A stretch of 64,000 bases of DNA from Trichobilharzia szidati (lineage: Eukaryota; Platyhelminthes; Trematoda; Strigeidida; Schistosomatidae): positions 30,246,865 to 30,310,864 of the forward strand of contig OX235275.1 of NCBI GenBank assembly GCA_944472155.2, read 5' to 3'. Shown in pieces: positions 1,270-58,130 of this stretch. Position numbers and translations under genes: made by a program. Every line of letters starts with the position of its first letter. Within the stretch, counting starts at the first letter, position 1. The notes beneath the pieces were generated by a model. It searched no databases. It saw nothing but the letters and a program-made list of their open reading frames with translations, and had not been told where the DNA came from.

Positions 1270-3407
1270 TCACAGATTAATAAGAATATATACACACAAA
1301 ATGGGTTGGAAGAAACACACCCACCACATATTATGAGCCATTCGCTGTGTAGCTTTGCGTCTTTCGCCAGACACATCGACTTCTTTATCTGGAAGGAATA
1401 CAGAGAAGAGCATGATCAAAATGACGCAGCATTCACACACTGACATTTTGAGAAATAATCAACCACTCTGTCTTCAGGATTTCATCATGAACTGGCATCG
1501 GTGATAGAAGCGTTGGAAAAGCAGCCAGAGTGAGAACATAAACCTGGTTGGTCAGGCTGGATTGATAGTTCGCTCTACCAGCACACTCACAACACAAGGT
1601 TTCGATGCTGGGAGCTTCCGGTTTTAAGCGAGCTCACACAACATTGAGCCACTGGGTTCCAGTCCAATGACCATCACATCAGTTCTCAAATTCACCGATC
1701 CATAATATGTTACTAGAGACGGACACAAGACAGTGTCGTCAGTGAAGAACATTTCTCCTCACATCCGACCTACTCTTCCTCATTGATCATGACTCTCTAC
1801 TAGAGCATGAAACACTGGAACGGGAGTTAACCGCTCTCCAGAACGCTCTGTCTCTGGCTATTCGATCGTTCTCCAATCAATGTCAGTCCATTATGAATTC
1901 ATGAAATCAATCAATTCACTGCTAACCAACAGCTGCAGCTTCTTTTCTGATTCAATAATGAAATTTTGAGCGAATATATACATATATGCAGATATATTAT
2001 TATTATTTCCTTTAGTTCCTAGAGAAACATAGGGCTTCAGCCATGCGTCTCCATTGCATTCGGTTCTCTGCTAGAGTTTTCACCTGGCTCCAAGTCTGCC
2101 CACACGTTTTCATCTCCTCTTCACATGATCTCCTCCAGGTCACCCATGGACGACCAACTCGTCGCTTCCATTTCGGGTTCCACTCGAGCAATGGCTTGTC
2201 TAGTGATGTCACTTGATGGTTTCCTCAGATTTTGGCCAATCCATCTCCATTTCTTCCTGCCTATTTGTTTCACAATTGGTTCCTGGTTGGTTCGCTCCCA
2301 GAGATCTTTGTTGCTGATCCTTTCCGGCCATCTGATCTTGAGTATTGAGCGAAGACAACTGTTAATGAATGTCTGTAGCTTGTTTGAGGTGCTCTTTGTG
2401 ACACGCCAAGTCTCTGATCCGTATAGTAGTACTGACTTCACATTGGAGTTGAAAATCCCGATCTTATTTTCCTTTTTATGCTGAATGTTGTTGACCTCCA
2501 CATAGACTTGAGAGTAATGAAAGCTTGCCTTGCTTTCCCGATCCTTGCTTTGATATCCTCGTCAGTTCCGCCTGTAGTTGAAACAATGCTTCCCAAGTAG
2601 GTAAAAGAGGTAGTTTCTTTCAGGTTCTTTCCATTTATGCTGATTGCTGTCTGTTGTTGTTGCTGTGGCTGTTGGTGTTGGCCAGGAATCTTCATCACCT
2701 CCGTTTTCTCTATGTTCACCTGGAGTCCTATCTTCTCTGGATGCTTCTTCTACCAACTTGTTCCTTTTCACTTACATATCTTCCGACTTGTGGGAAATCA
2801 GACATATATCATCGGCGAAGTCCAGATCCTCCAAGTTTTTTGTGTGAGTCCATTTTATGCCTGTTTCCTCATTGCCCGCTATTTGTCGCATTATCCGATC
2901 TACTGCAATCACCTCTCGATCGACGCTGTCGAAGGCCTTTTCAAAGTCAATGAAGTTGAGATAGAGAGGTGACATGCAGATATATATTTCAAATTATTTC
3001 ATCATTCAATATATGTGAATAACATCAAGATTGATAGCGCAAATGTGGAAACTACAAGTAGGATTGCACCAACATACATCGCTACAATACACAGTGACTG
3101 GAGAAAGTCTGCTTCACACAATCAACTAGTACATGATTCGTGCAAACAAACACATATATATGCATATATATATATTTATTTATCTATTTCAGATGTACAC
3201 ATACTAAAGTTCAACTTACGTTTGAGAGTGGAATTGGGAGCAACATAAACTGCAGCGGCCGTGGTGGTATCTGGAATACTCGGGTTCATAATCGCACCGT
3301 CTGCAACCGAAATCACCACAAGTGTAACAAGCAGATAGCAGATCTAAAGAGAAATAGCGTGAACCAACATGATCATCAAATCTCCTACACACACACACAC
3401 TCACCAT
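1270..3407 (-). CDS. MEG-like small secreted protein, copy 1 (long-intron form)
   Basis: Predicted 81-residue secreted protein of unknown function. Coding exons on the minus strand: 3,405-3,407 (ATG only), 3,220-3,343 (124 bp) and 1,270-1,388 (stop included). Introns are 61 bp (3,344-3,404) and 1,831 bp (1,389-3,219), all GT-AG. Exon 2 gives a hydrophobic leader ([16 protein letters not shown]) and then a Thr/Ala/Pro-rich stretch with an NST sequon at about residues 37-39. The terminal exon gives a basic segment and a C-terminal tail starting MWWVCFF that could be a membrane segment or GPI signal. The sequence shows frame, splice sites and leader; membership of the schistosome MEG class is inference. 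Against copy 2, exon 2 has three differences, all synonymous. A decayed RTE lies in intron 2. Further micro-exons in intron 2 cannot be excluded. Confidence 0.68.
1998..2973 (-). mobile_element. 5'-truncated RTE-clade LINE in intron 2 of copy 1, internally deleted
   Basis: Flanked by a 12-bp target duplication (atgcagatatat at 1,986-1,997 and 2,974-2,985). Read on the minus strand it starts inside the reverse transcriptase palm ([11 protein letters not shown]), includes LDFADDICLIS, the fingers-to-thumb segment with [13 protein letters not shown], and the RTE C-terminal part with WNP...KRRVGRP. It ends in a (AAT)n-like tail. Relative to the copies at 29,466 and 56,552 about 180 bp between the palm start and the QGCLLSP motif region is missing, with a short shared aatca at the junction. 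Several frames are broken, so it is a pseudogene copy. Confidence 0.85.
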
Positions 3408-4739: not shown

Positions 4740-6083
4740 TCTTCAGTCACTATAAATTTGAACTTCTTAATGTAAAATGTCAGGCGGAATATTTTACTGG
4801 AGATCGCTGAGACATGGGAAGACCAGGAGAGATCAGAAGACAGAATGAGTCCAAGATACTTAATTTCTGATTTAATTCCTATATCATTGTCATCAATCTT
4901 ACAACTGTCATGAGAATCGACGGCTTCTTTTAAATGTCGTTTACATCTTATGCTGAAATTAACAGTTTGACATTTAGAAGGATTCAGTTTAAGACCGTCA
5001 AACTCAGACCATTTACTGACTTCCGACAGAAAGCTATTTATTTTGATACAATCTAGCTGGGAGTTAACAGCCATTGAAACAGTGAAATCATCAGCGTACT
5101 TCACAAAGTTTATTTCATCAGACTGAGGCAAGTCATGTAAGAAGAAGGAAAAAAGAAAAGGAGAAAGGACAGCGCCTTGAGGGACACCACTTTAGTAGGT
5201 AATGAAGTCGAAGACTTCCCTTTATACATGGTGTACTGCTTTCTTCCTGAGAAATAAGAATGTAACCAGTTAACAGCCCAACATTTTGTTTGACTTGCAA
5301 CAAGTTTATTTAATAAGATGTCCCTAGGGACCGATTCAAAAGCAGATGTATAGTCTAGGAAGGCACAACGAACAAATTTAGCCCCTTTGTCTAGATTGGC
5401 AGCAATGTTATGATATAAGACGGCGGCTGCATCTAAAGTGCTTCTACTGTGCTTATAGGCAAACTGTTTTGGGTCATTAAAGGATTTAAGAGAGGGTACA
5501 AGACTAAGTGAAAGTAGTTTCTCCATAGTTTTGAAAAAAGGAGAGGTAATAGCAATGGGTCTAAATTTGACACCTGCTCCAGTGGACGATTTAGGTATGG
5601 GTACAACTTTAATGTCTTTCCAAACAGCAGGCACAATTTTACTGGAAAAAGATTTATTAAACAGATCAGTGAGAGGGTAACATAGAATATCAGAACATTT
5701 TTTGAAAATAATACTAGTTACATGATCTGGACCTAAGCTCTGGGAAGGGTTCAGAGACTTGAGGCACTTTTGAACATCATTTGTGTTAAAACCTGGAAAG
5801 GGGCTATTATTAACACTAGTGATACTGGGAAGCATGGAATTTGAGGGAGAATAAATAAAAGATTTATTAAGAGTACATGCATCAGAAGAATACGGAATAT
5901 TGTTAATCTGCTTACCACCAGTGATTTCCTTAAATAGTTTCCACATATTAGAAGCATTTTTGCAGGATATGAATTTCTGGTTATATATAACATTTTAATC
6001 TCTGCATTTCAGACTTGATAAGGAAGTTAGTTCTTTTTACACCACCTTTATCTTTCATTTTATATAGCTTTTCCTTCTCTCTG
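4740..6083 (-). mobile_element. CR1/Jockey-type LINE fragment in unit 1
   Basis: Minus-strand RT sequence homologous to the element at 18,775-21,549. Part 1 (5,110-5,946) covers WKLF.EITGG, SLGPDHV, KFRPIAITSPFF and FLDYTSAFESVPRD. A frameshift follows around 5,120-5,190. Part 2 (4,721-5,131) covers FVKYADDFTVS, GLKLNPSKCQTVNF and IKYLGLILSSDLSW. Both ends are truncated and no tail or target duplication is seen. It is dead. Confidence 0.82.
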
Positions 6084-6610: not shown

Positions 6611-9249
6611 AACGTTCTAAATTATGACTGGAAATTCACCAGAATCGAATTCAATTTCACTATCACTTAAACGTCTTAAACATTACTGATCGCATTTCAT
6701 AGTAAATATCGTCCTCCATCCCATGTTCTGAATTTTTAGACGGTTTGAAGTCTTGGATAAGTGGAACTACCCTCAAAGCCGTGATCAGTGTTCTTGCTGT
6801 CCTTCTTCCAAAGAATGTCCCTACAGTGTTATAGTTACCACTTCTGTATGTGACAACATGAAATGATTTCCGAAATATGAGAACGACACAGAAATATTCT
6901 TTCCAGTGACTTCATCCATAAGCACCATTATATCACAAAAATATATATATTAGTATCTAGCCAACTGTCTTGGCAGCATAATGAATAATTCTAAGGATGT
7001 GTCATAAGAATTGCCAATCTCAGATAAGGAAATTCGCTAGTCTGTACGAAACTCAAATGAGATAATTAAGCCAGTTAAGTGAGGTCATCCAGCTGACAAG
7101 GTTGGGAAGATCTCAACCTGGATGATAATTGAATAGAGTGAGATTCAAGGTAACAGTAGTGGTAATAAAGACGAGAGATTGAATAGGCCACGTTGGTGTG
7201 GGAACAATATCATACAATTGGGAAAAGAACTAGCAAGCAGAGCACAAGGCGAGAGTTTCGATTTGATGTCAAGATAAGTCATGATGATTTCAGATTCAAT
7301 CAAATGAGCAAACCTCTTCTGTATGCAGAGTTGAGGATTAAACATGTGAATCCCAATTGCTTCTGCGGTTCGAAGAAGTTTGATTCGTACGATTTTAGGA
7401 GAATACTCACGTATTCCACATTTAAATGTGGAGCTGTTTTGTGTAGTAGTGATAAAATACACATGTGTTGCACAACCCTTACACTCTCCTACATAAAAGC
7501 AAAACAGGAGGCGAGTGATCGATGGTATAGTTGGATAACGAACACTGTGCACGGTCACAACACGTAGCTCCACATGACCAGGTGAATCAGTGAGGCACAT
7601 TGACGAAGCCAGCTAACATTGACAGCTTATGTTTCCTTCACGTTCACGTTAAAGCAAATCATATAGAAGGTTTGAAGAGAAGATCATAATGACAGAGCTG
7701 GTAGATTGTGCGTTCCATGTCAGCTTTCTGTAGATGGATCTTCCGCAGACTAGCATCGTGTTCGCGCCTTGTTAGATGGATTTCCAGGAAAATATATTTT
7801 CGTGTCGGTATCCTTCCCTATTTTCAGTGGATTACTGGATGTTAGCCGTTCTATAGTCTAGGATGTCCTCAAAATTATCCTGTTTACAGGAGATAATGAA
7901 AGTGACATCCACGTATCTCTTGTTCAAAATAAAGTTGTGGGTTCAGAGTGGACTTGATCATAACTCTTGCTTCGTCCTGTTCTTGCTTGTTCCATTCTCA
8001 ATTGCATCATGTTTTTGTCACACCACCGTTACCAATTCAATCTCTCGCCTTCATTACCACTCTTGTTACCTTGACTCTCACTCCACTCAATAAGCATCTC
8101 AACCCCGTCATTTAAATCACCTCGCTCAACTTGAGTTTCCGATTGACTAGCGAAATTTGGTATATGCGATTCAGTGATTCCATGACACATCATTTCGCTA
8201 TGCATACTTTTACATATGTGCAAATGTACAGTTTGGAATGATATCACAGCAAGGAATATCTCTTCAATCAACACCCATTTTTTCATATGACTCAATGAGA
8301 ATTTTCAAGTCACTCAATGCCTGCAACTCTGACATTATCAGTCTTCTCCAGTAAGCGAGATGTGCTACAACCGGCGATATTACACTTTCACTAAAAACGA
8401 GAACACAGTCAATTTTCCTTGCAAACTACTTGAGGATAACATGAAAACCTATTGCACGTCAACTCTGAATTGTACGCCTTCTTCGACTATACAAAAAACA
8501 ACAGCAAGTCTCTAGATTACGCCCAACGCGCAATGATTGTCAATGTGGATGCGACATAAATGTTCGGAAAAACCTAGCAATTAACTAACTAACTTCACGA
8601 TCAGCAATTTTCTATGCCTAAGCTGTTTCAAGCAGGTTGACTGAAATTTGCATTATTCAAAAGACCGTTAATTTCTGTGACAGCAAACAAATAATTACAC
8701 TTCTATGCCAATTCTGTGTGCAATTAACTGAAAATGTATGTCTGCTCTGACTGATCGGAATGCAGCTAATTAATGAACACGATGTTGTCGGCATGAACTT
8801 TTGTCGACAAAAGCTCTAGTGAAATTCAGAAAGGCGCTTTCATCTCGCCCCGCCTCATCATCAGATGTTTTTCTGTCATTTGAGGTCAAATCAGAGAGAA
8901 AGAATGTAAAGTGAGTTGGCCATAATTTTTCTGCATTGATTATTTTCATTAATAATGGATGACTGCCAAATTGGCGCTTTCCTTCACCTCATTGTCATGC
9001 ATAGCCTGTCTGACATTTCTACTCACAAATGAAAGTAGCAGAGCAAATTACCATCTGATTGAGTAACAGGCTGATTTGAATCTCTCGTTGAGTGCCCATT
9101 CACGCATTAGTCATTATTGTCATTAATGTTCCCTTGGGCTCCGAGTGAAACATGGGTCAGCAAAAGCAATTCGTCTATTTCCTACTATTCTGCTGTGACA
9201 GACATACGTTTGAACACAATCTCTATTCTCTTCCTTCGCCAGCAATCTC

Positions 9250-9487
9250 CTCCATGCCAACCTCTCACTAATGATGAACTCATCGTTTCACTTACGGGTT
9301 CCTCTTCAGCATCGATCTCTCGACGGTCTCATTCGAATTTAATCAGTCCATCTCAATTTTATTATTCACATTCGTCAAGCAGTCGACTGTGCCTCCATTT
9401 GTTCCACTGCAGAGTGTGTTGTTGGAGAATGCTTCCTGCTGGCCGTCTGCTCGCAAATATTTTATCACTGAAAGCAGTTTCTGTATA
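9250..9487 (-). mobile_element. Degraded RTE 3' fragment at the end of unit 1
   Basis: Reverse-complement sequence aligns with the RTE segment after the RT domain (shared blocks such as aaaattgagatggac). A stop replaces the tryptophan of the EMDW motif seen in the equivalent frames of units 3 to 5. The fragment ends where loop 1 begins. Confidence 0.55.
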
Positions 9488-9940: not shown

Positions 9941-10110
9941 CACGACGATGAGTTCAGTAGTAGTCAGAGATTGGCATGAAGGGGATTGCTGGCGAAGGAA
10001 GAGAATAGAGATTGTGTTCAAACGTATGTCTGTCACAGCAGAATAGTAGGAAATAGACGAATTGCTTTTGCTGACCCATGTTTCACTCGGAGCCCAAGGG
10101 AACATTAATG
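9941..10110 (+). mobile_element. Degraded RTE 3' fragment at the start of unit 2
   Basis: Inverted counterpart of the fragment at the end of unit 1, corresponding to unit 4 from about 42,256 onwards. The palindrome junction lies inside this RTE tail on both sides of loop 1. Confidence 0.5.
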
Positions 10111-11770
10111 ACAATAATGACTAATGCGTGAATGGGCACTCAACGAGAGATTCAAATCAGCCTGTTACTCAATCAGATGGTAATTTGCTCTGCTACTTTC
10201 ATTTGTGAGTAGAAATGTCAGACAGGCTATGCATGACAATGAGGTGAAGGAAAGCGCCAATTTGGCAGTCATCCATTATTAATGAAAATAATCAATGCAG
10301 AAAAATTATGGCCAACTCACTTTACATTCTTTCTCTCTGATTTGACCTCAAATGACAGAAAAACATCTGATGATGAGGCGGGGCGAGATGAAAGCGCCTT
10401 TCTGAATTTCACTAGAGCTTTTGTCGACAAAAGTTCATGCCGACAACATCGTGTTCATTAATTAGCTGCATTCCGATCAGTCAGAGCAGACATACATTTT
10501 CAGTTAATTGCACACAGAATTGGCATAGAAGTGTAATTATTTGTTTGCTGTAACAGAAATTAACGGTCTTTTGAATAATGCAAATTTCAGTGAACCTGCT
10601 TGAAACAGCTTAGGCATAGAAAATTGCTGATCGTGAAGTTAGTTAGTTAATTGCTAGGTTTTTCCGAACATTTATGTCGCATCCACATTGACAATCATTG
10701 CGCGTTGGGCGTAATCTAGAGACTTGCTGTTGTTTTTTGTATAGTCGAAGAAGGCGTACAATTCAGAGTTGACGTGCAATAGGTTTTCATGTTATCCTCA
10801 AGTAGTTTGCAAGGAAAATTGACTGTGTTCTCGTTTTTAGTGAAAGTGTAATATCGCCGGTTGTAGCACATCTCGCTTACTGGAGAAGACTGATAATGTC
10901 AGAGTTGCAGGCATTGAGTGACTTGAAAATTCTCATTGAGTCATATGAAAAAATGGGTGTTGATTGAAGAGATATTCCTTGCTGTGATATCATTCCAAAC
11001 TGTACATTTGCACATATGTAAAAGTATGCATAGCGAAATGATGTGTCATGGAATCACTGAATCGCATATACCAAATTTCGCTAGTCAATCGGAAACTCAA
11101 GTTGAGCGAGGTGATTTAAATGACGGGGTTGAGATGCTTATTGAGTGGAGTGAGAGTCAAGGTAACAAGAGTGGTAATGAAGGCGAGAGATTGAATTGGT
11201 AACGGTGGTGTGACAAAAACATGATGCAATTGAGAATGGAACAAGCAAGAACAGGACGAAGCAAGAGTTATGATCAAGTCCACTCTGAACCCACAACTTT
11301 ATTTTGAACAAGAGATACGTGGATGTCACTTTCATTATCTCCTGTAAACAGGATAATTTTGAGGACATCCTAGACTATAGAACGGCTAACATCCAGTAAT
11401 CCACTGAAAATAGGGAAGGATACCGACACGAAAATATATTTTCCTGGAAATCCATCTAACAAGGCGCGAACACGATGCTAGTCTGCGGAAGATCCATCTA
11501 CAGAAAGCTGACATGGAACGCACAATCTACCAGCTCTGTCATTATGATCTTCTCTTCAAACCTTCTATATGATTTGCTTTAACGTGAACGTGAAGGAAAC
11601 ATAAGCTGTCAATGTTAGCTGGCTTCGTCAATGTGCCTCACTGATTCACCTGGTCATGTGGAGCTACGTGTTGTGACCGTGCACAGTGTTCGTTATCCAA
11701 CTATACCATCGATCACTCGCCTCCTGTTTTGCTTTTATGTAGGAGAGTGTAAGGGTTGTGCAACACAGGT

Positions 11771-12577: not shown

Positions 12578-13731
12578 ACCACTTATGGATGAAGTCACTG
12601 GAAAGAGTATTTCTATTTCGTTTCTATATTTCGGAATTCTTTTCATGTTGTCACATACAGAAGTGGTAATTATAACACATTAGGGACATTCTTTGGAAAG
12701 AGGACAGCAACAACATTGGTCATGGCTTTGTGGGTAGTTCCACTCATCCAAGACTTCACTCCGTCAAGCAACTAAAATCATGGGATGGAGGACGACATTT
12801 CCTGTTAAATGCGATCAGTAATGTTTAGGATACCTGAGTGATAATGAAATGGCATTCGCTTCTGGTGAATTTTCAGTAATACTGTAGAAATTCTATTTGC
12901 ATTCTGCTGGACACGAAATTGAGAAGACGAGATGTTATCTTGGAACACTGGCTAGTGGACAAAAATGAAATACAAAAATCGCTCCATGAGTACTAATTTT
13001 AGTGAAGGTCGAAGACACAATGTGGTATCAACAAAGAGATGTTCAACTGAGATTTTAGTTTCTTTAATGTAGCGATGCTGCAAGAGGTGATTGCTCCTTT
13101 TTGAATAATTGCAAGCAGAAGTAGCATTGGCTCTCTTCATAGTGGAAAATGTTTCTATGAAAATTCAATGACAATATTTCAACACACTAAGACATGAAGC
13201 TGTTGAGTCTGATCGCAATTGAGTCTGCTGAACACAAATGGACTGCAGACGTTCATCAACAGCTATCCTCACTGACTGACTGCACACTCAGGCCAACTAA
13301 AACAGATTACAAGGGAACATGGGTAAGAGGCAACTTAATACTGAAGTCGTTTCACCAGGACCCCAGTGCACCCGCAGATTTAACAGAACAACCAGTGGAA
13401 GTGAAAATTTCAAGTGATGAACACCACAACTCAGTAGAACACTGTGAGAAACAGCAAACAAACACAGTATTTCACATACATCATTCAAGGTGTATCAGTC
13501 ACACACACAGTGAAATGTGAAAATGACATCACTCATCTCACACTGACACAGAAACACCATCGACTGCACACACACTCACTGAATTATTATCTATCGATTC
13601 ACCAATCATCAACTCCATTTCTCTCTCATCCACTCACACAATCACATACTCAGTCAAGATGAGAGTGTTTCCATTGGTCACACTGGACGACCAACTGAAA
13701 CACGTGTCCGCATCACACTCATCCTGCATGG

Positions 13732-13743
13732 CATATATATACA
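13732..13743 (+). promoter_or_regulatory. TATA-like box of MEG-like gene copy 2
   Basis: The motif catatatataca lies about 75-85 bases before the ATG. A CCAAT pentamer is at 13,602-13,606, about 130 bases further upstream. The whole stretch from about 13,560 to the ATG is strongly conserved in the five copies. The element is inferred from position and composition only. Confidence 0.45.
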
Positions 13744-13816
13744 CGTGAATGTTTCCTGTGATATCATCATCATCATCGGCTTCATCATCGACGAGTGTTG
13801 TTCCAATTCAGTGAGA

Positions 13817-14946
13817 ATGGTGAGTGTGCGTGTGTAGGAGATTTGATGGTCATGTTGGTTCATGCTATTTCTCTTTAGATCTGCTATCTGCTTGTTACAC
13901 TGGTGGTGATTTCAGTTGCAGACGGTGCAATTATGAACCCGAGTATTCCAGATACCACCACGGCCGCTGCAGTTTATGTTGCTCCCAATTCCACTCTCAA
14001 ACGTAAGTTGAACTTTAGTATGTGTACATCTGAAATACATAAATGTATATTTGAGTTTGTTTGCACGAACCATGTACTAGTTGACTGTGTGAAGCAGACT
14101 GTCTCCAGTCATTGTGTATTGTAGCGATGTATGTTGGTGCAATCCTACTTGTAGTTTCCACGTTTGTGCTGTCACTCTTGATGTTATTCACATATTTTGA
14201 ATGATGGCATAATTTCAAATATATATCTACATATATGCATGTAATCGCTCAACATTTCATTTCTGAATCAGAGAAGAATTTGCAGCTGTTGATTACCAGG
14301 GAATTGATTGATTTCAAGAATTCATAATGGACTGACATTGCTTGGAGAACGATCGGCCAGTCAGCGACAGAGAATTCTGGCCAATGCTTAACTCCTTGTC
14401 CAGTGTTTCATGCTGTAGTGGGGAGTCGTGATCAACGAGGAAGTTTAGATCGGATGTTAGGAGGAACATTATTCACTGATGATACTGTCTTGTGTCTGTC
14501 GCTAGTGACATATTATGGATCGGCGAATTTGAGAACTGACGTGATGGCCATTGGACTGGAACCCAGTGGTTCAATGTTGTGTGAGCTCGCCTTAAAACCG
14601 GAATCTCCTGGCTTCGAAAGCTTGTGCTTTGAGTAGACTCGTGGAGCGAACTGACAATCTAGCCTGACCAACCAGGTTTTGATTACTCCCTCTGGCTACT
14701 TTTTCAATGCTTCTCTAACCGATGTCAGTTCATGATGAGATCCTGAAGACAGAGTGATTATTTCTCAAAGTGTCAGTGTGTGAATGCTGCGTCATTTTGA
14801 TCATGCTCTTCTCTGTATTCCTTCCAGATAAAGAAGTCGATGTGTCTGGCGAAAGACGCAAAGCTACACAGCGAATGGCTCATAATATGTGGTGGGTGTG
14901 TTTCTTCCAACCCATTTTGTGTGTATATATTCTCATTAATCTGTGA
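13817..14946 (+). CDS. MEG-like small secreted protein, copy 2 (short-intron form)
   Basis: Exons: ATG at 13,817-13,819 directly followed by a GTGAGT donor; 13,879-14,002 (124 bp) after a TTTCTCTTTAG acceptor and before a GTAAGT donor; 14,828-14,946 after a polypyrimidine tract and CCAG. Introns are 59 and 825 bp. A codon is split C/AT across intron 2 and gives His43. The product is 81 residues: leader residues 1-15 with a plausible SVA cleavage site, then a short mature chain with an NST sequon, a basic stretch around residues 52-61 ([10 protein letters not shown]) and a hydrophobic end. The stop is 55 bases before AATAAA. This is the simplest copy, with no retroelement in intron 2, and is the reference for the model. 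No homologue is recognised by name. Confidence 0.72.
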
Positions 14947-15001
14947 TTACAACGACCAACCAGCTCTTTCCTATTCTCATATCTGTTCACTGAGTTGAGT
15001 A

Positions 15002-15007
15002 AATAAA
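15002..15007 (+). terminator. Polyadenylation signal AATAAA, copy 2
   Basis: AATAAA within gagtaaataaacttcg, 55 bases past the stop at 14,944-14,946. It closes a short 3' UTR conserved in all copies. Confidence 0.65.
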
Positions 15008-18774: not shown

Positions 18775-21549
18775 TTTTTTTAATAATAATAATAATAATT
18801 TGCTTTATTCCAAAACAGTACTTGTGATACAGAATGGAATTCTCAGCATTTTTACTACAGTATTGCATCCAGTTAGTACATTGTCAATAAATAGAATTCT
18901 ACATAGATTGAGGAAACCACAGTTCATTATTACAACAATACATTGGCATGTTCAGTAGCAAAGGTAAAGCTGAAACAGTGTTTGAAGGTGTTAGAAAAGT
19001 GGGAGCTGTCTTATTAACTGGCGTAAGCGAAAGAAAGAGACAAAGCAGCACATAACGGAAAAAGAAGAGAGAGAAAAGGAACAGAAAGAAAGGAAATGTT
19101 GAACCTATTGATGAAGTGGGTTGGAAAGATGAGATCCAGTTGTACTAATGACTATTTAATGAATTATAGGTGTCACGCCTAATGCTTTCTTTATCACACA
19201 GAACGCGAGCTAAGTAGGGTATGGTAGAGTTTTTGTACTTGCTGGTGCGAGCATATAGTTTTCTATATTGGCTTCTGGTTTTGCCTGATGAGATGCAAGG
19301 GGAGAGTTGTGAGTGAAGAGGGTGGTGTGAGTTAGATAAAATGGACTTGGCCCATTTTTCACATGAGTCCATGTGCCTGTCAACCAAAATATTAACAAGC
19401 TGGTTAAGTGGCACGTTGCTTACTCTGCTGACAACATTTAACATCCTGCGTAATATGTTATAGTCTTTCTTCAGTAGCCCAGGAAAAACTAAGGGGGAAC
19501 AATAGAGAATAATAGGCAGGATGCGAGAATTAACGAATTGTAGGAGTAGGGGTTGGGTAATACCAGAATGTTTTAACTTCTTAATGTAGAAGGCAAGACG
19601 GAATATTTTCTTAGAAATTGCTAAGATATGAGACGACCAGGAGAGATCAGCAGATAGAATGACACCTAGGTATTTAATTTCCGATTTAGTTTCTATTTCA
19701 GTGCCGTCTATTTTGCATACCTCGTGAGAGCCAAACAGTTTGTTTAGGTCGGATTTATGCCTAAAGGTGAAATTGACTGTTTGGCATTTGGAAGGGTTTA
19801 GAGTAAGACCATTTTCCTTGGACCACTGGTTGATTTCTGACAGAAAGCCATTAAGTTTAGAGCAGTCGCTTTGACATTTGATAGGCAAAGATACAGACAG
19901 ATCATCAGCGTATTTGACAAAATTAATTTCATTTGAAGATGGTAAGTCATGTAGAAAGAAGGAAAAGAGAAGTGGGGAGAGTACAGCGCCTTGGGGGACT
20001 CCGGCTTCAGTGAGTGCAGCAGAGGATGATTTACCTTTGTATACAGTGTACTGCTTTCTGTTAGAGAAGTAGGAGTGCAACCAGTTAGTGACCCAGGACT
20101 CAGTTTTCGTCAAAGAGAGCTTATTTAGAAGGAGACATCTAGGAACAGAGTCGAAAGCAGAAGTGAAGTCAAGAAACGTGCAGCGGACGTATTTAGCACC
20201 TTTATCTAATGATGAGACGATGTTGTTGTGTAAGACAGCTGCAGCGTCTAATGTACTCCTACCCTGTCTATAGGCAAATTGTTTTGGGTCTTCGAAGTTT
20301 TTAAGGGAGGGTTCGAATTTAAGAAGTATTAGTTTTTCCATAACCTTTAGAAACGGGGAAGTGATGGCAATGGGTCTGAACTTTACGTTCTTGCCATTTC
20401 CAGGTTTAGGGACAGGGACAATTTTGATGTCTTTCCATGCATCAGGTACGATATTTTTGGAGAAAGAGGCATTTAGGATGTTGGTTAGTGGAGAACACAA
20501 CACATCTGCACATTGTTTTAGAACATAGGCAGGTATGCCATCAGGACCTAGGCTACGTGAGGGCTTGAGTGTTTTAAGACATTTTAGAACATCGAGAGTA
20601 TTAAAGTCATGAAAGTTTTCAGCAACATGATAGGTAACATTAGAGGTAGTTAAAGTAGAAGGACAGCGTATAAAAGACTGATTAAGAGCATTAACATCAT
20701 AAGAGGGAAAAGTATTACAACGCTTACTATTACCAGTAATTTCATTAAAAAGTTTCCACATACTGATTGGAGATTTACATGATAAAAGTGTATCATTATA
20801 GATAGCATTAAGATTTTTGATTTCATATTTGATCTGAGCATTAATCTTTTTGAGTCCTAACTTGTCTTTGGATTTGTACAAAGTTTCTTTTTTCCTGCGA
20901 AGTTGTTTGAGATAAGGGGATGAGAAGCGGTCGAGACGTTTGAATAGAGTTTGTTTGGGACAACATATATCAAGGCAAAACTTGAGATAATCCGTTATAT
21001 TGACGATTGTGTCATCTAATGAACTTTCATGGAATAAGTCCCAGTTAGTATTTTGTAACATGCACCTTAGATTGAGTAAGTTTTCGGATGAGTAGCATCT
21101 TTGTTGTGCTTTCATAGACAGATGCGAGAAGACTTTAATATGTGTTTTGCTGTAAATTTTTGGTAGAACACGAACAATAGAGTGATCAGAGTTGAGGATC
21201 GGTGCACGTTTACGTGCTTCATAGATTCCTTCGTCATTTGTAAAAACTAAATCCAGTGTTTTGTCTAGTCGAGTGGGAAATTTGACAATGTTAGAGTGAC
21301 CAAGTGCTTCAAGGAAGGAGCAATCTGACGAGTTGAAGTCCCCAGTAATAACAGACAGAGAGTTGTCGAAGTTGGCAGCGGCGAACATGGTGAATTCATC
21401 GGCAAAATTTGAAAGATTAGATAGTGAGCAACTTGGAGAAATGTACATGTTTGTGATAAAGGTGTGTTTATATTTGGGGAGATGTTTGGGACGACATTTG
21501 ACGGTGATTCAGTCTATGAAGTCATTTGAGAATGAGAAGCAAACATTAT
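18775..21549 (-). mobile_element. CR1/Jockey-type LINE inserted into the old RTE
   Basis: Boundaries come from the empty site at 49,870-49,910, where gttctcttcctgtattatctactccc is continuous. The 3' end (plus-strand side 18,775) has AATAAAGCAAATT followed by ATT repeats and an A run; the 5' end is truncated within the endonuclease. A long intact frame covers most of it. No clear target duplication could be read. It is absent from loop 2', so it inserted after the two loop 2 copies separated. Confidence 0.87.
19145..21448 (-). CDS. CR1/Jockey-type LINE ORF2, partial endonuclease plus complete reverse transcriptase
   Basis: 767 codons without interruption. Endonuclease C-terminal motifs GDFNSSD (36-42) and NSDHS (86-90) come first. 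The RT follows: GPDGIP (301), KFRPIAITSPFLKVMEKL (356-373), FLDFTSAFDSV (425-435), GVPQGAVLSPLLFSFF (483-498), catalytic YADD (513-516), GLTLNPSKCQTVNF (547-560) and IKYLGV (591-596). A thumb and C-terminal region with CEKWAKSIL follow. Upstream in the same frame, KCRPKHLPKYKHTFITN continues the endonuclease back to one in-frame stop at about codon -21, so the first Met is simply the first after that stop. Much of the endonuclease including its N-terminal catalytic residues is missing, so the copy should be unable to retrotranspose alone. The open frame shows the insertion is recent. Confidence 0.88.
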   Translation of the reverse strand: MYISPSCSLSNLSNFADEFTMFAAANFDNSLSVITGDFNSSDCSFLEALGHSNIVKFPTRLDKTLDLVFTNDEGIYEARKRAPILNSDHSIVRVLPKIYSKTHIKVFSHLSMKAQQRCYSSENLLNLRCMLQNTNWDLFHESSLDDTIVNITDYLKFCLDICCPKQTLFKRLDRFSSPYLKQLRRKKETLYKSKDKLGLKKINAQIKYEIKNLNAIYNDTLLSCKSPISMWKLFNEITGNSKRCNTFPSYDVNALNQSFIRCPSTLTTSNVTYHVAENFHDFNTLDVLKCLKTLKPSRSLGPDGIPAYVLKQCADVLCSPLTNILNASFSKNIVPDAWKDIKIVPVPKPGNGKNVKFRPIAITSPFLKVMEKLILLKFEPSLKNFEDPKQFAYRQGRSTLDAAAVLHNNIVSSLDKGAKYVRCTFLDFTSAFDSVPRCLLLNKLSLTKTESWVTNWLHSYFSNRKQYTVYKGKSSSAALTEAGVPQGAVLSPLLFSFFLHDLPSSNEINFVKYADDLSVSLPIKCQSDCSKLNGFLSEINQWSKENGLTLNPSKCQTVNFTFRHKSDLNKLFGSHEVCKIDGTEIETKSEIKYLGVILSADLSWSSHILAISKKIFRLAFYIKKLKHSGITQPLLLQFVNSRILPIILYCSPLVFPGLLKKDYNILRRMLNVVSRVSNVPLNQLVNILVDRHMDSCEKWAKSILSNSHHPLHSQLSPCISSGKTRSQYRKLYARTSKYKNSTIPYLARVLCDKESIRRDTYNSLNSH

Positions 21550-28771: not shown

Positions 28772-30783
28772 TCACAGATTAATAAGAATATATACACACA
28801 AAATGGGTTGGAAGAAACACACCCACCACATATTATGAGCCATTCGCTGTGTAGCTTTGCGTCTTTCGCCAGACACATCGACTTCTTTATCTGGAAGGAA
28901 TACAGAGAAGAGCATGATCAAAATGACGCAGCATTCACACACTGACAATTTGAGAAATAGTCACTCTGTCTTCAGGATTTCATCATGAACTGACATCGGT
29001 TACAGAAGCATTGGAAAAGCAGCCAGAGGGAGTACACAAACCTGGTTCGTCAAGCTGGAGTGACAGTTCGAACCCTGGAGCTCTCGGTTTTAAGGCGAGG
29101 TCACCCAACATTGAGCCACTGGGTTCCAGTCCAATGACCATCACATCAGTTCTCCAATTCGAGGATCAATAATATGTCACTAGAGACGGACACAAAACAG
29201 TGTCGTCAGTGGAGAACATTTCTCCCCACATCCGACTTACTCTTCCTTATTGATCATGACTCCCCCACTATAGCATAAAACACTGGAACGGGAGTTTACC
29301 GCTCTCCAGAACGCTCTGTCGCTGGCTATTCGATCGTTCTCCAATCAATCTCAGTCCATTATGAATTCATGAAATCAATCAATTCCCTGCTAACCAACAG
29401 CTGCAACTTCTTGTCTGATTCAATAATGAAATTTTGAGCGAATATATACATACATGCAGATATATTATTATTATTTCCTTTAGTTCCTAGAGGAACATAG
29501 GGCTTCAGCCATGCGTCTCCATTGCGTTCGGTTCTCTGCTAGAGTTTTCACTTGGCTCCAAGTCTGCCCACACATTTTCAATTCCTCTTCACATGATCTC
29601 CTCCAGGTCACCCTTGGACGACCGACTCGTCGCTTCCCTTTCGGGTTACACTCGAGCGATGGCTTGTCTATTGATGTCACTTGCTGGTTTCCTCAGAGTG
29701 TGGCCAATCCATCTCCATTTCTTCCTGCCTATTTGTTTCACGATCGGTTCCTGGTTGGTTCGCTCCCAGAGATCTTTGTTGTGATCCCTTCCGGCCATCT
29801 GATCTTGAGTATTGAGCGAAGACAACTGTTAATGAATGTCTGTAGCTTGTTTGAGGTGCTCTTTGTGACACGCCAAGTCTCTGATCCGTATAGTAGTACT
29901 GACTTCACATTGGAGTTGAAAATCCCGATCTTATTTTTGACGCTGAATGTTGTTGACCTCCACACAGACTTGAGAGTAGTGAAAGCTTGCCTTGCTTTTC
30001 CGATCCTTGCTTTGATATCCTCGTCAGTTCCGCCTGTAGTTGAAACAATGCTTCCCAAGTAGGTAAAGGAGGTAGTTTCTTTCAGGTTCTTTCCATTTAT
30101 GCTGATTGCTGTCTGTTGTTGTTGCTGTGGCTGTTGGTGTTGGCCAGGAATCTTCATCACCTCCGTTTTCTCTATGTTCACCTGGAGTCCTATCTTTGAT
30201 GCTTCTTCTGCCAACTGGTTGCCTTTCGCTTGCATATCTTCCAGTTTGTGGGAAATCAGACATATATCATCGCCGAAGTCCAGATCCCCCAAATTCTTTG
30301 TGTGAGTCCATTTTATGCCTGTTTCCTCATTGCCCGCTGTTTGTCGCATTATCCAATCTACTGCAATCAGGAAAATCATTGGCGATAGTAGGCAACCCTG
30401 TCTTACTTCTGTCTTCACTTCGAAGGATTCCGTGAGCTTCCCGTTGTGGATTACTTGGCATGCAGCGTTGTCATACAACTGTTGGATGAGATGTATAATT
30501 GTCGGCGGCACCCCGTAGTAGCGAAGTAGTTGCCAAATCACCTCTCGATCGACGCTGTTGAAGGCCTTTTCAAAGTCGATGAAGTTGAGATAGAGAGGTG
30601 ACATGCAGATATATATTTCAAATTATTTCATCATTCAATATATGTGAATAACATCAAGATTGATAGCGCAAATGTGGAAAATACAAGTAGGATTGCACCA
30701 ACATACATCGCTACAATACACAATGACAGTATGTTTCACACAATCAACTAGTGCATGGTCCGTGAAAAAAAACTTGAATATAC

Positions 30784-30814
<31 letters not shown>

Positions 30815-31046
30815 CAATTATTCATTTCAGATGTTCACATAGTAAAGTTCAACTTACGTTTGAGAGTGGAATTGGGAGCAACATAAACTGCCGCGGCCGT
30901 GGTGGTATCTGGAATACTCGGGTTCATAATTGCACCGTCTCCAACTGAAATCACCACCAGTGTAACAAGCAGATAGCAGATCTAAAGAGAAATAGCATGA
31001 ACCAACATGACCATCAAATCTTCCAACACACACGCACACTCACCAT
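28772..31046 (-). CDS. MEG-like small secreted protein, copy 3 (long-intron form)
   Basis: Exons on the minus strand: 31,044-31,046 (ATG), 30,858-30,981 and 28,772-28,890. Intron 1 is 62 bp, slightly longer through extra GT repeats; intron 2 is 1,967 bp and contains a 1,137-bp RTE in the same orientation. The protein equals copy 2 except Ala to Gly at the presumed signal cleavage site (SVG instead of SVA), which still suits a signal peptidase. The fourth-from-last codon is CTT instead of CTC, both Leu; one alanine codon in the Thr/Ala-rich stretch is GCG instead of GCT. Frame and splice sites are intact. Confidence 0.68.
29466..30602 (-). mobile_element. 5'-truncated RTE-clade LINE in intron 2 of copy 3
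   Basis: A 1,137-bp insertion between 12-bp target duplications (29,454-29,465 and 30,603-30,614). A 288-codon frame (29,738-30,604) covers the RT from [11 protein letters not shown] through [12 protein letters not shown], a catalytic box reading FGDD, and YLGSI to the segment after LYGSETW. A single-base deletion then shifts the frame before the C-terminal WNPKGKRRVGRP part (29,480-29,680). The 3' UTR is only a few bases and ends in AAT repeats. The endonuclease is absent, so the copy cannot move on its own. Confidence 0.88.
30784..30808. repeat. (AT)n microsatellite in intron 2 of copy 3
   Basis: AT run about 50-75 bases inside intron 2 from the exon 2 donor. Equivalent runs at 46,026-46,056 (longest) and 57,877-57,894 differ in length; copy 2 has nearly lost it. 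Confidence 0.9.
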
Positions 31047-37027: not shown

Positions 37028-39094
37028 TAGCTTTTATTCGTCTGTTCGTTTTCTGGAGCGCCTTCTGCAACTCTTCCGGGTGTACCTAATAGATCTGCAG
37101 CCAGATTCTCTTTGTACACGGATTATCAACGCAGTTTGGATCCTTTGGTGACGTTGGATAATGCCTGGGTCAAGGAAGGGACGTGGCACTGTGGAAGCAG
37201 TCAAAAAAGTAAGTAACGATGAGTTGCCTGGTAATTGTAATGATATTCATGATGCTCAGCATGGTGAGTGTTATGTTTACGCTTCGCCGTTTAGGGATAG
37301 TAGTGCCCCAAGGCTCCCTAAATTTGAACCTCGATACTTTGTTGGAAACTCAGCCGACTACCCACAGTTTATCGAAGAGTTTGAGGTTATGTTGAGTGGT
37401 TTTGTATTAAATGATGAAATGAAATTGATGTATTGGTTGAGGTATTGCACCGGTGTGGCTGCAAGAGCCATACAGAGCTGCAATTTTATGTCCCCGAACG
37501 AAGGATATACCGAGGCAATGAGGATACTACTTCAAAGGTTTGGGAAACCATTTTTGAGATCCCGTAGGATTTTCGAGAAAGGGAAAGGTAATGGATCACA
37601 GCTAAACGATAATTCATTGTAACTCGCAGAGTTCTTGGATAATTTAATGGTATACAGAAATACTCTGGTTTACTTTAACAATTTGGATGAGTTGAACTCA
37701 AGTTCTGTGCTTGAGACTGTTGCCAAGAGATTACAAAGGAAGTTCATAAAGGTCTGTTCATGTCTAGAGGAGGAGGGTTTAGAGCCCGGGTTAGATGACA
37801 TTGTGAGCCTGGTCAAGGACAGTGTCAACCAAGCTTTGAGCAAGTTTCCTAGTGTACTGCATCCCGTCCATGGAATGGAGAAATCAGAGAGCGAAACGCA
37901 ATCATTTATGATGAAAGGGTCTCAGCGTAGTGGATATCGAGAAGGCTTTATGGTGTCTAGTAATCCATACAAACCTAATGAGTTTGACAGCTTTAGTGGA
38001 ACGTACCCAACAGATAGGTTACAAGCTGCAAGACAAACACGGTTGTGCTTCGTCCATTTGCAAGAAGTGCGTACAAAAGCGAACTGTGAAGCAGTGAGCA
38101 AGCTTAGTGGTGAGCTAAATGTGAAGTCAGCGTCATCAAGCTCTGACTGTGAATCGTGTGACGATAATGGTGCGGTTAAGAAGCCTGTAGCTGCAACTGG
38201 TAAGCAGTTGTTGAATAGATTGTCACGCACGACACCACAGTTTGTGCAGAAGAAGAGGGTTACAGTTTCAGAGTCCACTTCTGACTTCACAAGTTTACAA
38301 GGTATTACTAGTCAGAGTAACAGTATAAAACCTTTAGGGATTTATGAGGAAGACCTCAAATCATCTACTGCTGTTATTGAAGAGGTTGAAAATGATGAAG
38401 TCGATCATACAAATGGCAATAAAGTGGATATTTGTGACAATGGTCAAGACAGTGCTCATTTATCTTTGGCTGATCATGATGAGATAAGCGGAATGCCTAC
38501 TACTACTGAGTTGAACAAATGTTCTGTACAGATTGAACGTGATGTAGAATTAAAGGCAGATGTGGTCGCAGTAATTATGGATACTCATGAGACCGTCAGT
38601 GTAAATGACCCGTTTGTAGTCCACTTATTGATGGATGTTAATTCTAAACTGGAGCTAATTATAAAGGATAGCAGTGGTTGTAATCCCGCGCTTAGACAAC
38701 TTCCTAAAGTTCAAAGAACATCAGCCTCGGATCCACTGCTAAGTTCATCAACCTGTTTCACTCAGTGGTCAGTGGTGTTGTCATCCACATTGAAGGTGAC
38801 TTCCACGAAGTCATGTGTCTTGCGCTGTGACTATGATAGTATCGGTCATTTTGAAAGGACGAAAGTCAATGGTCAGTGTAGTGAGGATAAGCCAACTGGG
38901 TATGAGAGTGTAACTGTTAAACTGACTTGTACGAAAAACGCATTTCAGTCCTTTAGCCTAAATAAAGTTTCTGCAAATTTCTTATCACTGAAACGATATC
39001 CGCTTATCCAAGTCGACTCTATTCCGATTCGTATTGCGGATATTTATCACGACAGGAATTTCCTGTTGATACACTCCCTGAGGATCTCATATTA
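36721..39094 (+). mobile_element. BEL/Pao-type LTR retrotransposon, 5' LTR and gag only
   Basis: 5' LTR at 36,721-37,027 (starts TGTCATGG, ends near ccttga), untranslated leader, then a gag-like frame. Reverse transcriptase, integrase and 3' LTR are missing: sequence after 39,095 is loop 1'. The uninterrupted target is seen at about 63,437 in unit 5 and about 40,543 in unit 4. Only the left side of the insertion is preserved. Confidence 0.8.
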
Positions 39095-39095
39095 G
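37161..39095 (+). pseudogene. BEL/Pao gag (and possible protease start), one internal stop
   Basis: A single reading frame of 644 codons broken once by TAA at 37,620-37,622; both sides stay in the same frame. Residues ~51-180 carry the BEL/Pao gag signature: LPKFEPRYFVGNSADYPQF ... FEVML ... GVAARAIQSC ... ILLQRFGKP. After the stop, LAEFLDNLMVYRNTL continues the same domain. The second half is Ser/Thr- and acid-rich; near its end VTVKLTCTKNAFQSFSLNKV may correspond to the protease region, but no catalytic DSG/DTG is visible. The frame stops at the junction with loop 1'. No zinc knuckle seen. The element is defective. Confidence 0.75.
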
Positions 39096-45718: not shown

Positions 45719-45731
45719 ATATATATACACG
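45719..45731 (+). promoter_or_regulatory. TATA-like box of MEG-like gene copy 4
   Basis: The motif atatatatacacg lies about 70-80 bases before the ATG, in the same context as in copy 2. The CATCAT-rich 5' UTR is a few codons shorter in this copy, showing length variation outside the coding exons. Confidence 0.45.
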
Positions 45732-45796: not shown

Positions 45797-46021
45797 ATGG
45801 TGAGTGTGCGTGTGTAGGAGATTTGATGGTCATGTTGGTTCATGCTATTTCTGTTTAGATCTGCTATCTGCTTGTTACACTGGTGGTGATTTCAGTTGGA
45901 GACGGTGCAATTATGAACCCGAGTATTCCAGATACCACCACGGCCGCTGCAGTTTATGTTGCTCCCAATTCCACTCTCAAACGTAAGTTGAACTTTACTA
46001 TGTGTACATCTGAAATGAATA

Positions 46022-46056
<35 letters not shown>

Positions 46057-46915
46057 GTTTGTTTGCACGAACCATGTACTAGTTGATTGTGTGAAACATA
46101 CTGTCTCCAGTCATTGTGTATTGTAGCGATGTATGTTGGTGCAATCCTACTTGTAGTTTCCACATTTGTGCTATCACTCTTGATGTTATTCACATATATT
46201 GAATGATGAAATAATTTGAAATATATATCTGCATATATGTATATATTCGCTCAACATTTCATTATTGAATCAGACAAGAAGTTGCAGCTGTTGGTTAGCA
46301 GGGAATTGATTGATTTCATGAATTCCTAATGGACTGACATTGGTTGGAGAACGATCGGATAGCCAGGGGCTGAGCATTCTGGAGAGCGGTTGACTCCCAG
46401 TCAAGTGTTTCATGCTCTAGTGGGGAGTCGTGATCAATGAGGAAGATTAGGTGAGGTGTGGAGAGAAATATTCTCCACTGATGACACTGTTTTGTGTCCA
46501 TCGCTAGTGACATATTATTGATCGGCGAATTTGAGAACTGATGTGATGGTCATTGGACTGGAACCCAGTGGCTCAATGTTGGGTGAGCTCGCCTTAAAAC
46601 CGAGAGCTCCAGGCTTCGAACTGTCACTCCAGCTTGACGAACCAGGTTTGTGTACTCCCTCTGGCTGCTTTTCCAATGCTTCTCTAACCGATGTCAGTTC
46701 ATGATGAAATCCTGAAGACAGAGTGATTATTTCTCAAAATGTCAGTGTGTGAATGCTGCGTCATTTTGATCATGCTCTTCTCTGTATTCCTTCCAGATAA
46801 AGAAGTCGATGTGTCTGGCGAAAGACGCAAAGCTACACAGCGAATGGCTCATAATATGTGGTGGGTGTGTTTCTTCCAACCCATTTTGTGTGTATATATT
46901 CTTATTAATCTGTGA
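45797..46915 (+). CDS. MEG-like small secreted protein, copy 4 (short-intron form)
   Basis: Exons: 45,797-45,799 (ATG), 45,859-45,982 and 46,797-46,915. Introns are 59 and 814 bp. The intron 1 acceptor reads TTTCTGTTTAG, one base different from copy 2. The protein has the Gly variant at the cleavage site, like copies 3 and 5. The terminal exon differs from copy 2 only at one third-codon position (CTT for CTC, Leu). Intron 2 has a long (AT)n run near its 5' end and no RTE. The gene points into loop 2', towards copy 5 in convergent orientation. Confidence 0.7.
46026..46056. repeat. (AT)n microsatellite in intron 2 of copy 4
   Basis: The longest AT run of the set, about 45-75 bases downstream of the exon 2 donor. 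Confidence 0.9.
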
Positions 46916-55857: not shown

Positions 55858-58130
55858 TCACAGATTAATCAGAATATATACACACAAAATGGGTTGGAAG
55901 AAACACACCCACCACATATTATGAGCCATTCGCTGTGTAGCTTTGCGTCTTTCGCCAGACACATCGACTTCTTTATCTGGAAGGAATACAGAGAAGAGCA
56001 TGATCAAAATGACGCAGCATTCACACACTGACAATTTGAGAAATAATCACTCTGTCTTCAGGATTTCATCATGAACTGACATCGGTTAGAGAAGCATTGG
56101 AAAAGCAGCCAGAGGGAGTACACAAACCTGGTTCGTCAAGCTGGAGTGACAGTTCGAAGCCTGGAGCTCTCGGTTTTAAGGCGAGCTCACCCAACATTGA
56201 GCCACTGGGTTCCAGTCCAATGACCATCACATCAGTTCTCCAATTCGAGGATCAATAATATGTCACTAGCGATGGACACAAAACAGTGTCGTCAGTGGAG
56301 AACATTTCTCCCCACATCCGACTTACTCTTCCTCATTGATCATGACTCCCCCACTATAGCATAAAACACTGGAACGGGAGTTTACCGCTCTCCAGAACGC
56401 TCTGTCGCTGGCTATTCGATCGTTCTCCAATCAATCTCAGTCCATTATGAATTCATGAAATCAATCAATTCACTGCTAACCAACAGCTGCAACTTCTTGT
56501 CTGATTCAATAATGAAATTTTGAGCGAATATATACATACATGCAGATATATTATTATTATTTCCTTTAGTTCCTAGAGGAACATAGGGCTTCAGCCATGC
56601 GTCTCCATTGCGTTCGGTTCTCTGCTAGAGTTTTCACTTGGCTCCAAGTCTGCCCACACGTTTTCATCTCCTCTTCACATGATCTCCTCCAGGTCACCCT
56701 TGGACGACCGACTCGTCGCTTCCATTTCGGGTTACACTCGAGCTATGGCTTGTCTAGTGATGTCACTTGCTGGTTTCCTCAGAGTGTGGCCAATCCATCT
56801 CCATTTCTTCCTGCCTATTTGTTTCACGATCGGTTCCTGGTTGGTTCGCTCCCAGAGATCTTTGTTGTGATCCCTTCCGGCCATCTGATCTTGAGTATTG
56901 AGCGAAGACAACTGTTAATGAATGTCTGTAGCTTGTTTGAGGTGCTCTTTGTGACACGCCAAGTCTCTGATCCGTATAGTAGTACTGACTTCACATTGGA
57001 GTTGAAAATCCCGATCTTATTTTTGACGCTGAATGTTGTTGACCTCCACACAGACTTGAGAGTAGTGAAAGCTTGCCTTGCTTTTCCGATCCTTGCTTTG
57101 ATATCCTCGTCAGTTCCGCCTGTAGTTGAAACAATGCTTCCCAAGTAGGTAAAGGAGGTAGTTTCTTTCAGGTTCTTTCCATTTATGCTGATTGCTGTCT
57201 GTTGTTGTTGCTGTGGCTGTTGGTGTTGGCCAGGAATCTTCATCACCTCCGTTTTCTCTATGTTCACCTGGAGTCCTATCTTTGATGCTTCTTCTGCCAA
57301 CTTGTTGCCTTTCGCTTGCATATCTTCCAGTTTGTGGGAAATCAGACATATATCATCGCCGAAGTCCAGATCCTCCAAATTCTTTGTGTGAGTCCATTTT
57401 ATGCCTGTTTCCTCATTGCCCGCTGTTTGTCGCATTATCCAATCTACTGCAATCAGGAAAATCATTGGCGATAGTAGGCAACCCTGTCTTACTTCTGTCT
57501 TCACTTCGAAGGATTCCGTGAGCTTCCCGTTGTGGATTACTTGGCATGCAGCGTTGTCATACAACTGTTGGATGAGATGTATAATTGTCGGCGGCACCCC
57601 GTAGTAGCGAAGTAGTTGCCAAATCACCTCTCGATCGACGCTGTTGAAGGCCTTTTCAAAGTCGATGAAGTTGAGATAGAGAGGTGACATGCAGATATAT
57701 ATTTCAAATTATTTCATCATTCAATATATGTGAATAACATCAAGATTGATAGCGCAAATGTGGAAAATACAAGTCGGATTGCACCAACATACATCGCTAC
57801 AATACACAATGACTGGAGACAGTATGTTTCACACAATCAACTAGTGCATGGTCCGTGAAAAAAAACTTGAATATACATATATATATATATATATGTATAT
57901 ACAATTATTCATTTCAGATGTACACATAGTAAAGTTCAACTTACGTTTGAGAGTGGAATTGGGAGCAACATAAACTGCCGCGGCCGTGGTGGTATCTGGA
58001 ATACTCGGGTTCATAATTGCACCGTCTCCAACTGAAATCACCACCAGTGTAACAAGCAGATAGCAGATCTAAAGAGAAATAGCATGAACCAACATGACCA
58101 TCAAATCTCCTACACACGCACACTCACCAT
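55858..58130 (-). CDS. MEG-like small secreted protein, copy 5 (long-intron form)
   Basis: Exons on the minus strand: 58,128-58,130 (ATG), 57,945-58,068 and 55,858-55,976. Introns are 59 and 1,968 bp; intron 2 holds the same 1,137-bp RTE insertion as copy 3. Exon 2 equals that of copy 3 (Gly variant). At the variable Leu codon near the end this copy has CTG, the third synonymous state at that site. In the alternative frame of the terminal exon the same change creates a stop, which supports the frame chosen here. Confidence 0.68.
56552..57688 (-). mobile_element. 5'-truncated RTE-clade LINE in intron 2 of copy 5
   Basis: Same length, boundaries and target duplication (56,540-56,551 and 57,689-57,700) as the copy in unit 3, with the same frameshift and the same FGDD box. 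The 288-codon frame (56,824-57,690) differs from that copy at only a few residues. This is one insertion inherited through duplication, not an independent event. Confidence 0.88.
57877..57894. repeat. (AT)n microsatellite in intron 2 of copy 5
   Basis: A shorter version of the AT run near the exon 2 donor in copies 3 and 4. Confidence 0.85.

Follow-up and report, generated by a model that had tools for sequence, protein, structure and literature searches.

Sequence comparison confirms that five related stretches in one window of the genome of Trichobilharzia szidati, a bird schistosome (bird blood fluke), are copies of a real, easily missed gene whose family is larger than first described. 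The window is the whole stretch of 64,000 nucleotides that was analysed (C5:30,246,865-30,310,864); the assembly searched comprises 1.11 Gb in 907 contigs, among them those labelled here C1, C3, C4, C5, C7, C8, C462 and C708, with the window lying on C5. Individual gene copies or loci of the family carry the labels c1, c3, c13 or L-numbers, and database proteins carry P-numbers. Comparison of the letters demonstrates the gene structure, the constraint on the exons, the sharing of a 5′ cassette across chromosomes and the existence of a relative in T. regenti. We favour, with a probability of about 65%, the reading that these are working three-exon genes within a superfamily built on that cassette, and that they encode co-regulated, small secreted and probably membrane-seeking proteins. 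The family appears, so far, only in Trichobilharzia.

Gene model and copies in the window

An earlier note, made from the window alone, described a complete gene at 13,732-15,007, and the letters match its exons, splice sites, stop and AATAAA exactly (Table 1). The spliced product has 81 residues, encoded by 246 coding bases (3 + 124 + 119) and ending at a TGA at 14,944-14,946. The focal ATG directly abuts the donor GTGAGT, and the relatives that were read have the identical exon-1 layout, with ATG as the sole codon before the donor.

Table 1. Coordinates of the focal gene and of its four further copies in the window.
Feature	Position	Strand	Remark
ATTGG, which we take to be an inverted CCAAT box	13673..13677	+	In 13 of 15 aligned representatives on six chromosome-size contigs; absent from c13 and L034
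TATA-like box of focal copy, TATATATA	13734..13741	+	Read in the sequence
Exon 1, coding part	13817..13819	+	ATG alone, final codon of exon 1
Intron 1	13820..13878	+	59 bp, GT..AG
Exon 2	13879..14002	+	124 bp; leader and beginning of variable spacer; ends in phase 1
Intron 2	14003..14827	+	825 bp, GT..AG; 14,003-14,707 evolves freely
Exon 3, coding part	14828..14946	+	119 coding bases including TGA; spacer end, conserved tail, stop
AATAAA polyadenylation signal	15002..15007	+	
Copy 2, ATG of exon 1	45797..45799	+	
Copy 2, exon 2	45859..45982	+	
Copy 2, exon 3 coding part	46797..46915	+	Placed by offset from focal copy
Copy 3, exon 3 coding part	1270..1388	-	
Copy 3, exon 2	3220..3343	-	
Copy 3, ATG of exon 1	3405..3407	-	
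Copy 4, exon 3 coding part	28772..28890	-	
Copy 4, exon 2	30858..30981	-	
Copy 4, ATG of exon 1	31044..31046	-	
Copy 5, exon 3 coding part	55858..55976	-	
Copy 5, exon 2	57945..58068	-	
Copy 5, ATG of exon 1	58128..58130	-	

The four further copies were all found where the note had placed them, beginning at 1,209, 28,711 and 55,797 on the minus strand and at 45,719 on the plus strand. The figure of five holds for the window but not for the total, as the surrounding cluster (C5:30.195-30.486 Mb) contains 11 complete models among 13 places inspected. Of the remaining two places, L012 is a copy for which the stretch read yielded no exons 1-2, and L010 has downstream similarity only. All five window copies retain GT/AG at both introns, the stop and AATAAA, and together encode only two distinct proteins, with A or G at residue 15.

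Intron 2 measures 1,831-1,968 bp in the minus-strand copies versus 814-825 bp in the two plus-strand copies, and in copy 4 the extra part contains a reverse-transcriptase fragment (29,738-30,622). An open frame in intron 2 of copy 5 (56,824-57,708) is near-identical to this fragment. Reverse-transcriptase frames (PF00078) in the window lie at 19145-21508, 5110-5994 and 29738-30622, all on the minus strand, and probably derive from LINE-type elements. Query positions 767-1035 also matched on C1-C5; we attribute these matches to an interspersed repeat within intron 2 and disregarded them.

Several observations concern the surroundings of the genes. Towards the middle of the cluster, gene orientation mostly alternates at a spacing of ~10-17 kb, as if an inverted pair had undergone repeated duplication. 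The window also holds an inverted pair of ~1.8 kb (7461-9286 and 9945-11770) with 99.5% identity, apparently far younger than most nearby duplications, many of which are 84-94% identical. At 37152-39095 on the plus strand, two adjoining open frames, 156 and 490 aa when counted stop to stop, drew no Pfam match and are possibly one interrupted mobile-element gene.

Constraint on the exons

Variable columns were counted in an alignment of nine close copies from the cluster surrounding the focal gene. Exon 3 is the best kept part, with 3 variable columns of 122 (coding, 14,828-14,949), followed downstream by 8/61 in the 3′UTR and 230/585 beyond it. Exon 2 shows 16/121, the first part of intron 2 (14,003-14,707) 289/672, and the last 120 positions of that intron 17/120. 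Towards the 5′ end, the counts are 10/59 for intron 1, 4/85 for the TATA/5′UTR part and 10/132 upstream. The difference in variability from intron 2 gave Fisher p values of 1.8e-22 for exon 3 and 6.4e-11 for exon 2, the columns not being wholly independent because the copies are kin. With exons that vary so much less than intron 2, the observation lies far beyond chance.

The splice dinucleotides, the stop and AATAAA are kept in 9/9 close copies, and the sole coding indel among them is of 3 bases, intron 2 having indels of many lengths. Over all pairs of the nine copies, which are non-independent, pN/pS is 0.30 for the whole coding sequence and 0.09 for exon 3, where synonymous changes are nearly absent among close copies too. 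Between the focal copy and more distant ones, dN roughly equals dS (dN 0.317 and dS 0.311 against c1; 0.513 and 0.575 against c13), the two being close outside the leader, so that constraint at the protein level is weak at that depth. Moreover, the promoter, the UTRs and intron 1 are about as conserved as exon 2, so that regulatory constraint or gene conversion may also act; gene conversion could account for part of the pattern.

A cassette shared across the genome

The 5′ cassette, comprising the upstream region, the ATG-only exon 1, the short intron 1 and the leader exon, is repeated across the genome. The exon-1/donor pattern, allowing at most one mismatch, gave 102 genomic matches versus 2 for a reversed control. 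Of the 100 matches listed, the pattern fits 64 exactly and 36 with one mismatch, and 8 of these 36 have lost the ATG or the GT donor. With 40 of 103 candidates scored, the 391-bp cassette has at least 42 matches, on C1, C3, C4, C5, C7, C8 and C462.

A second sub-family shares promoter, ATG exon, short intron and leader with the window genes and has a different mature part (SSLQ|GGDKHSGLQYH, then KR). It came to light first on C5, at 3.56-4.0 Mb and 12.02 Mb, and later across C1, C3, C4, C5, C7, C8 and C462. Exon 2 is 109 bases long in 17 of its 18 models, the other having 112, and TATAAATA stands at the TATA-box position in 11 of 12 aligned rows.

Twenty dispersed loci were read (L031-L050). 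The leader exon is present in all 12 of those from the cassette search (L031-L042), a sample biased towards success, and in 6 of the 8 from the pattern list (L043-L050). L045 and L047, which match the exon-1 pattern and have no leader exon, were rejected as family genes. Within the stretches read, L034 has no terminal exon and L049 no convincing one. From these proportions (12/12 and 6/8) among the 102 pattern matches, we would put the family at some 75-100 members, a rough guess rather than a count.

L024 and the FHWG group are visibly truncated, without the Trp-rich tail. The latter (L035, L037, L039, L041, L046 and L048, on C1, C5, C8, C462 and C708) consists of second sub-family members ending early in FHWG, and represents either a truncated form that has spread or a tail-less variant. 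On C1, exon-1 matches stand head to head ~0.5 kb apart at 46886531 (-)/46887040 (+) and at 46892181 (-)/46892690 (+), as if family genes shared a divergent promoter region.

Relatives in T. regenti and in the databases

Family-alignment searches of the protein database, word-based and of limited reach, returned only Trichobilharzia proteins, six of them distinct: A0AA85ISA4 (P0004), A0AA85J9L4 and A0AA85IXT4 from T. regenti, and three unnamed T. szidati products, one partial. These uncharacterized proteins have a leader and a layout as in the window gene, and the sources listed give neither a function nor a family name for them. A tail of WWxC or WxC type occurs in A0AA85ISA4, A0AA85J9L4 and one T. 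szidati entry (P0006), A0AA85ISA4 alone belonging to the window's own sub-family.

P0004 (84 aa) aligns end to end with the 81-residue window product, across the exon 2/3 join, with 48 of 84 positions identical and a single 3-residue gap. Identity amounts to 15/18 in the leader, 15/44 in the spacer and 15/19 in the tail, and within the mature part it is concentrated in the tail (permutation p 0.001). Another T. regenti entry, P0005, runs on into intron 2.

The note had also claimed that genes of this design are easily missed by gene finders. In keeping with this, no T. szidati protein of the window sub-family surfaced in the protein searches of limited reach; database proteins of the second sub-family do exist for this species. 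A single-sequence homology search of the protein database with the 81-residue product gave no match, Pfam held no family for it, and no solved structure matched at E up to 1. Two weak Pfam matches, each to one other of nine members scanned (Fungal_trans, E 0.0046; Herpes_UL56, E 0.1), were taken as chance. A full-text literature search with the leader strings found no paper, and a search on family expansions found nothing on this Trichobilharzia small-protein family.

The protein and its possible roles

The product consists of a leader and a fast-changing spacer, with sequons in some members, followed in the window family by a basic stretch and a Trp-rich tail. The leader is a putative one, as judged from the hydrophobic N-terminal sequence and a low-confidence fold. 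The hydrophobic tail was found as the note describes it, and in the window family it has a 15-residue hydropathy of 2.19 starting at residue 65. The proposed N-glycosylation sequon is present in the focal product but is not constant, being absent from c3, c13 and P0004.

A tail of the type WWxCxxxPIxC occurs in many, not all, family members. The divergent copy c13, with its acceptor positioned as in the focal copy, has WWKCLLAPIFC, and others read WWTCLFQPILC (c1), WWTCLITPIFC (L042), WWVCLITPIFC (T. regenti P0002), WWICVLLLGFC (L040) and WWIFFISPFWY (L017). The strict pattern WW.C...P[IF].C matches 14 of 33 proteins tested, 9 of these being near-identical cluster copies. The predicted fold of P0004, a weak one (mean pLDDT 61, pTM 0.24, four sequences), places helices at 2-20 (the leader) and 40-83, between which the chain appears disordered, residues 21-39 being below pLDDT 50.

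In the favoured reading, the unit of the superfamily would be a conserved 5′ cassette, namely ~200 bp before the ATG with the TATA box, the ATG-ending exon, an intron of 51-62 bp and the leader exon, after which the variable spacer and terminal exon come. The leader would route the product into the secretory path and the spacer would form its exposed, fast-changing part. The Trp-rich hydrophobic tail, a low-confidence helix, may lodge in a membrane of the worm itself or of a host cell. With a common promoter, all copies would be switched on jointly in a single stage or gland, and their number may supply both dose and variety at the host interface.

An unlikely alternative is that these are anchored surface glycoproteins, the tail acting as a glycolipid-anchor signal or lone membrane span and the spacer being displayed on the surface of the worm or egg. 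In the window family, the C-terminus is indeed hydrophobic and follows a spacer that is polar and sometimes glycosylatable. This is missing in some relatives, however, several having a charged or polar C-terminus instead (IARQI, LVWEIE). What evolution preserves in an anchor signal is its character rather than its letters, yet this tail has 15 of 19 residues identical between species.

Slightly harder to credit is a pre-propeptide, cut at dibasic KR sites ahead of the tail to release a short Trp-rich peptide. In 16 of 18 second sub-family models, KR stands at residues 53-54 (55-56 in L026), abutting the tail where there is one, and may be a dibasic cleavage site. In the window copies, however, RRK lies ~10 residues ahead of WW, P0004 has KK and QR instead, and L039 and L041 are without a dibasic site.

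The note had likened the gene to the schistosome micro-exon genes (MEGs), and as a small, split, leader-bearing, multi-copy gene it does resemble them. That these are true MEGs with overlooked micro-exons is nevertheless very improbable. The setting would suit it, given a schistosomatid genome and a secreted type of protein with a rapidly changing middle and hydrophobic character. In addition, the accessible part of PMC6362228 reports 10 MEG transcripts from T. szidati and 4 from T. regenti, identified by similarity to six reference MEGs, and mentions MEG transcripts considered Trichobilharzia-specific. The structure tests already contradict this reading. PMC5825161 puts ~80% of the coding sequence of MEGs in symmetric exons of 6-36 bp. 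In the window gene, exons of at most 36 bp account for 3 of 246 coding bases (1.2%), and neither exon 2 (124) nor exon 3 (119) is divisible by three, which runs against MEG symmetry and exon skipping. A search of intron 2 in the nine copies for hidden micro-exons gave no conserved in-frame candidate; it required invariant AG and GT, a gap-free length of 6-81 bases divisible by three, and invariance of at least 90% of columns. A short linear motif following the signal peptide is described for MEGs in the available part of PMC10526429, and its literal pattern, itself unvalidated on known MEGs, occurs in 0 of 33 proteins tested. Membership among the MEGs thus fails, because of the 1.2% micro-exon coding, the asymmetric exons 2 and 3 and the lack of a micro-exon candidate in intron 2, and the likeness is one of flavour only.

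Least credible of all is that there is no gene, and that a frame arose by accident in a repeat cassette or in tracts of gene conversion: the dispersal of copies over many contigs and the conservation of promoter, UTRs and intron 1 at about the level of exon 2 would fit, but splice sites and stop persist in 9/9 close copies, the lone coding indel is of 3 bases, pN/pS is low, a T. regenti protein spans the join, and second sub-family proteins of T. szidati stand in the database.

Significance

Avian schistosomes cause swimmer's itch. According to PMC4749378, orphans rank among the most highly transcribed larval genes of T. regenti, taking 10 of the top 20 places in cercariae and 8 of 20 in schistosomula. 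This sizeable and largely unnamed family, with its small secreted-type products and one common promoter, is an obvious place to look for part of that orphan set. The family would show a second route, beside MEGs, to variable small secreted proteins in blood flukes, and the gene models supply exact junctions (13,819/13,879 and 14,002/14,828) that can be looked for in existing RNA-seq.

Comparison with known systems

The start-codon exon recalls the flatworm spliced-leader RNAs. The introduction of PMC12582326 states that all reported flatworm spliced leaders possess a terminal ATG, and in the available part of its survey AUG precedes the GU donor with a few exceptions. Exon 1 here likewise ends in AUG right before a GU donor, the difference being that a promoter of its own stands in cis to this exon. 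Since exon 1 closes with the start codon, an AUG-ending spliced leader could replace that exon in frame; joined at the intron-1 acceptor, it would yield the identical protein by a second route, an idea drawn from the layout.

More tentatively, and with the odds clearly against the scheme as a whole, one may picture a portable cassette of promoter, ATG exon and leader in up to ~100 copies, carrying quickly diversifying mature parts, many with a Trp-rich, membrane-active tail, as a Trichobilharzia counterpart of the MEGs that varies through gene copies instead of micro-exon skipping, with a two-route start via a spliced leader.

With the MEGs, the window gene shares a small secreted-type protein, a putative leader, multiple copies, fast evolution and one very short exon. 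The signal part of MEGs evolves more slowly than the mature part, according to the portion of PMC4350168 available, and the same holds for the window gene family. PMC5825161 describes amphipathic helices or hydrophobic C-terminal regions in several MEGs, to which the hydrophobic tail of the window gene may be compared. Unlike MEGs, it has three exons only, next to no micro-exon coding sequence, asymmetric exons 2 and 3 and no MEG motif.
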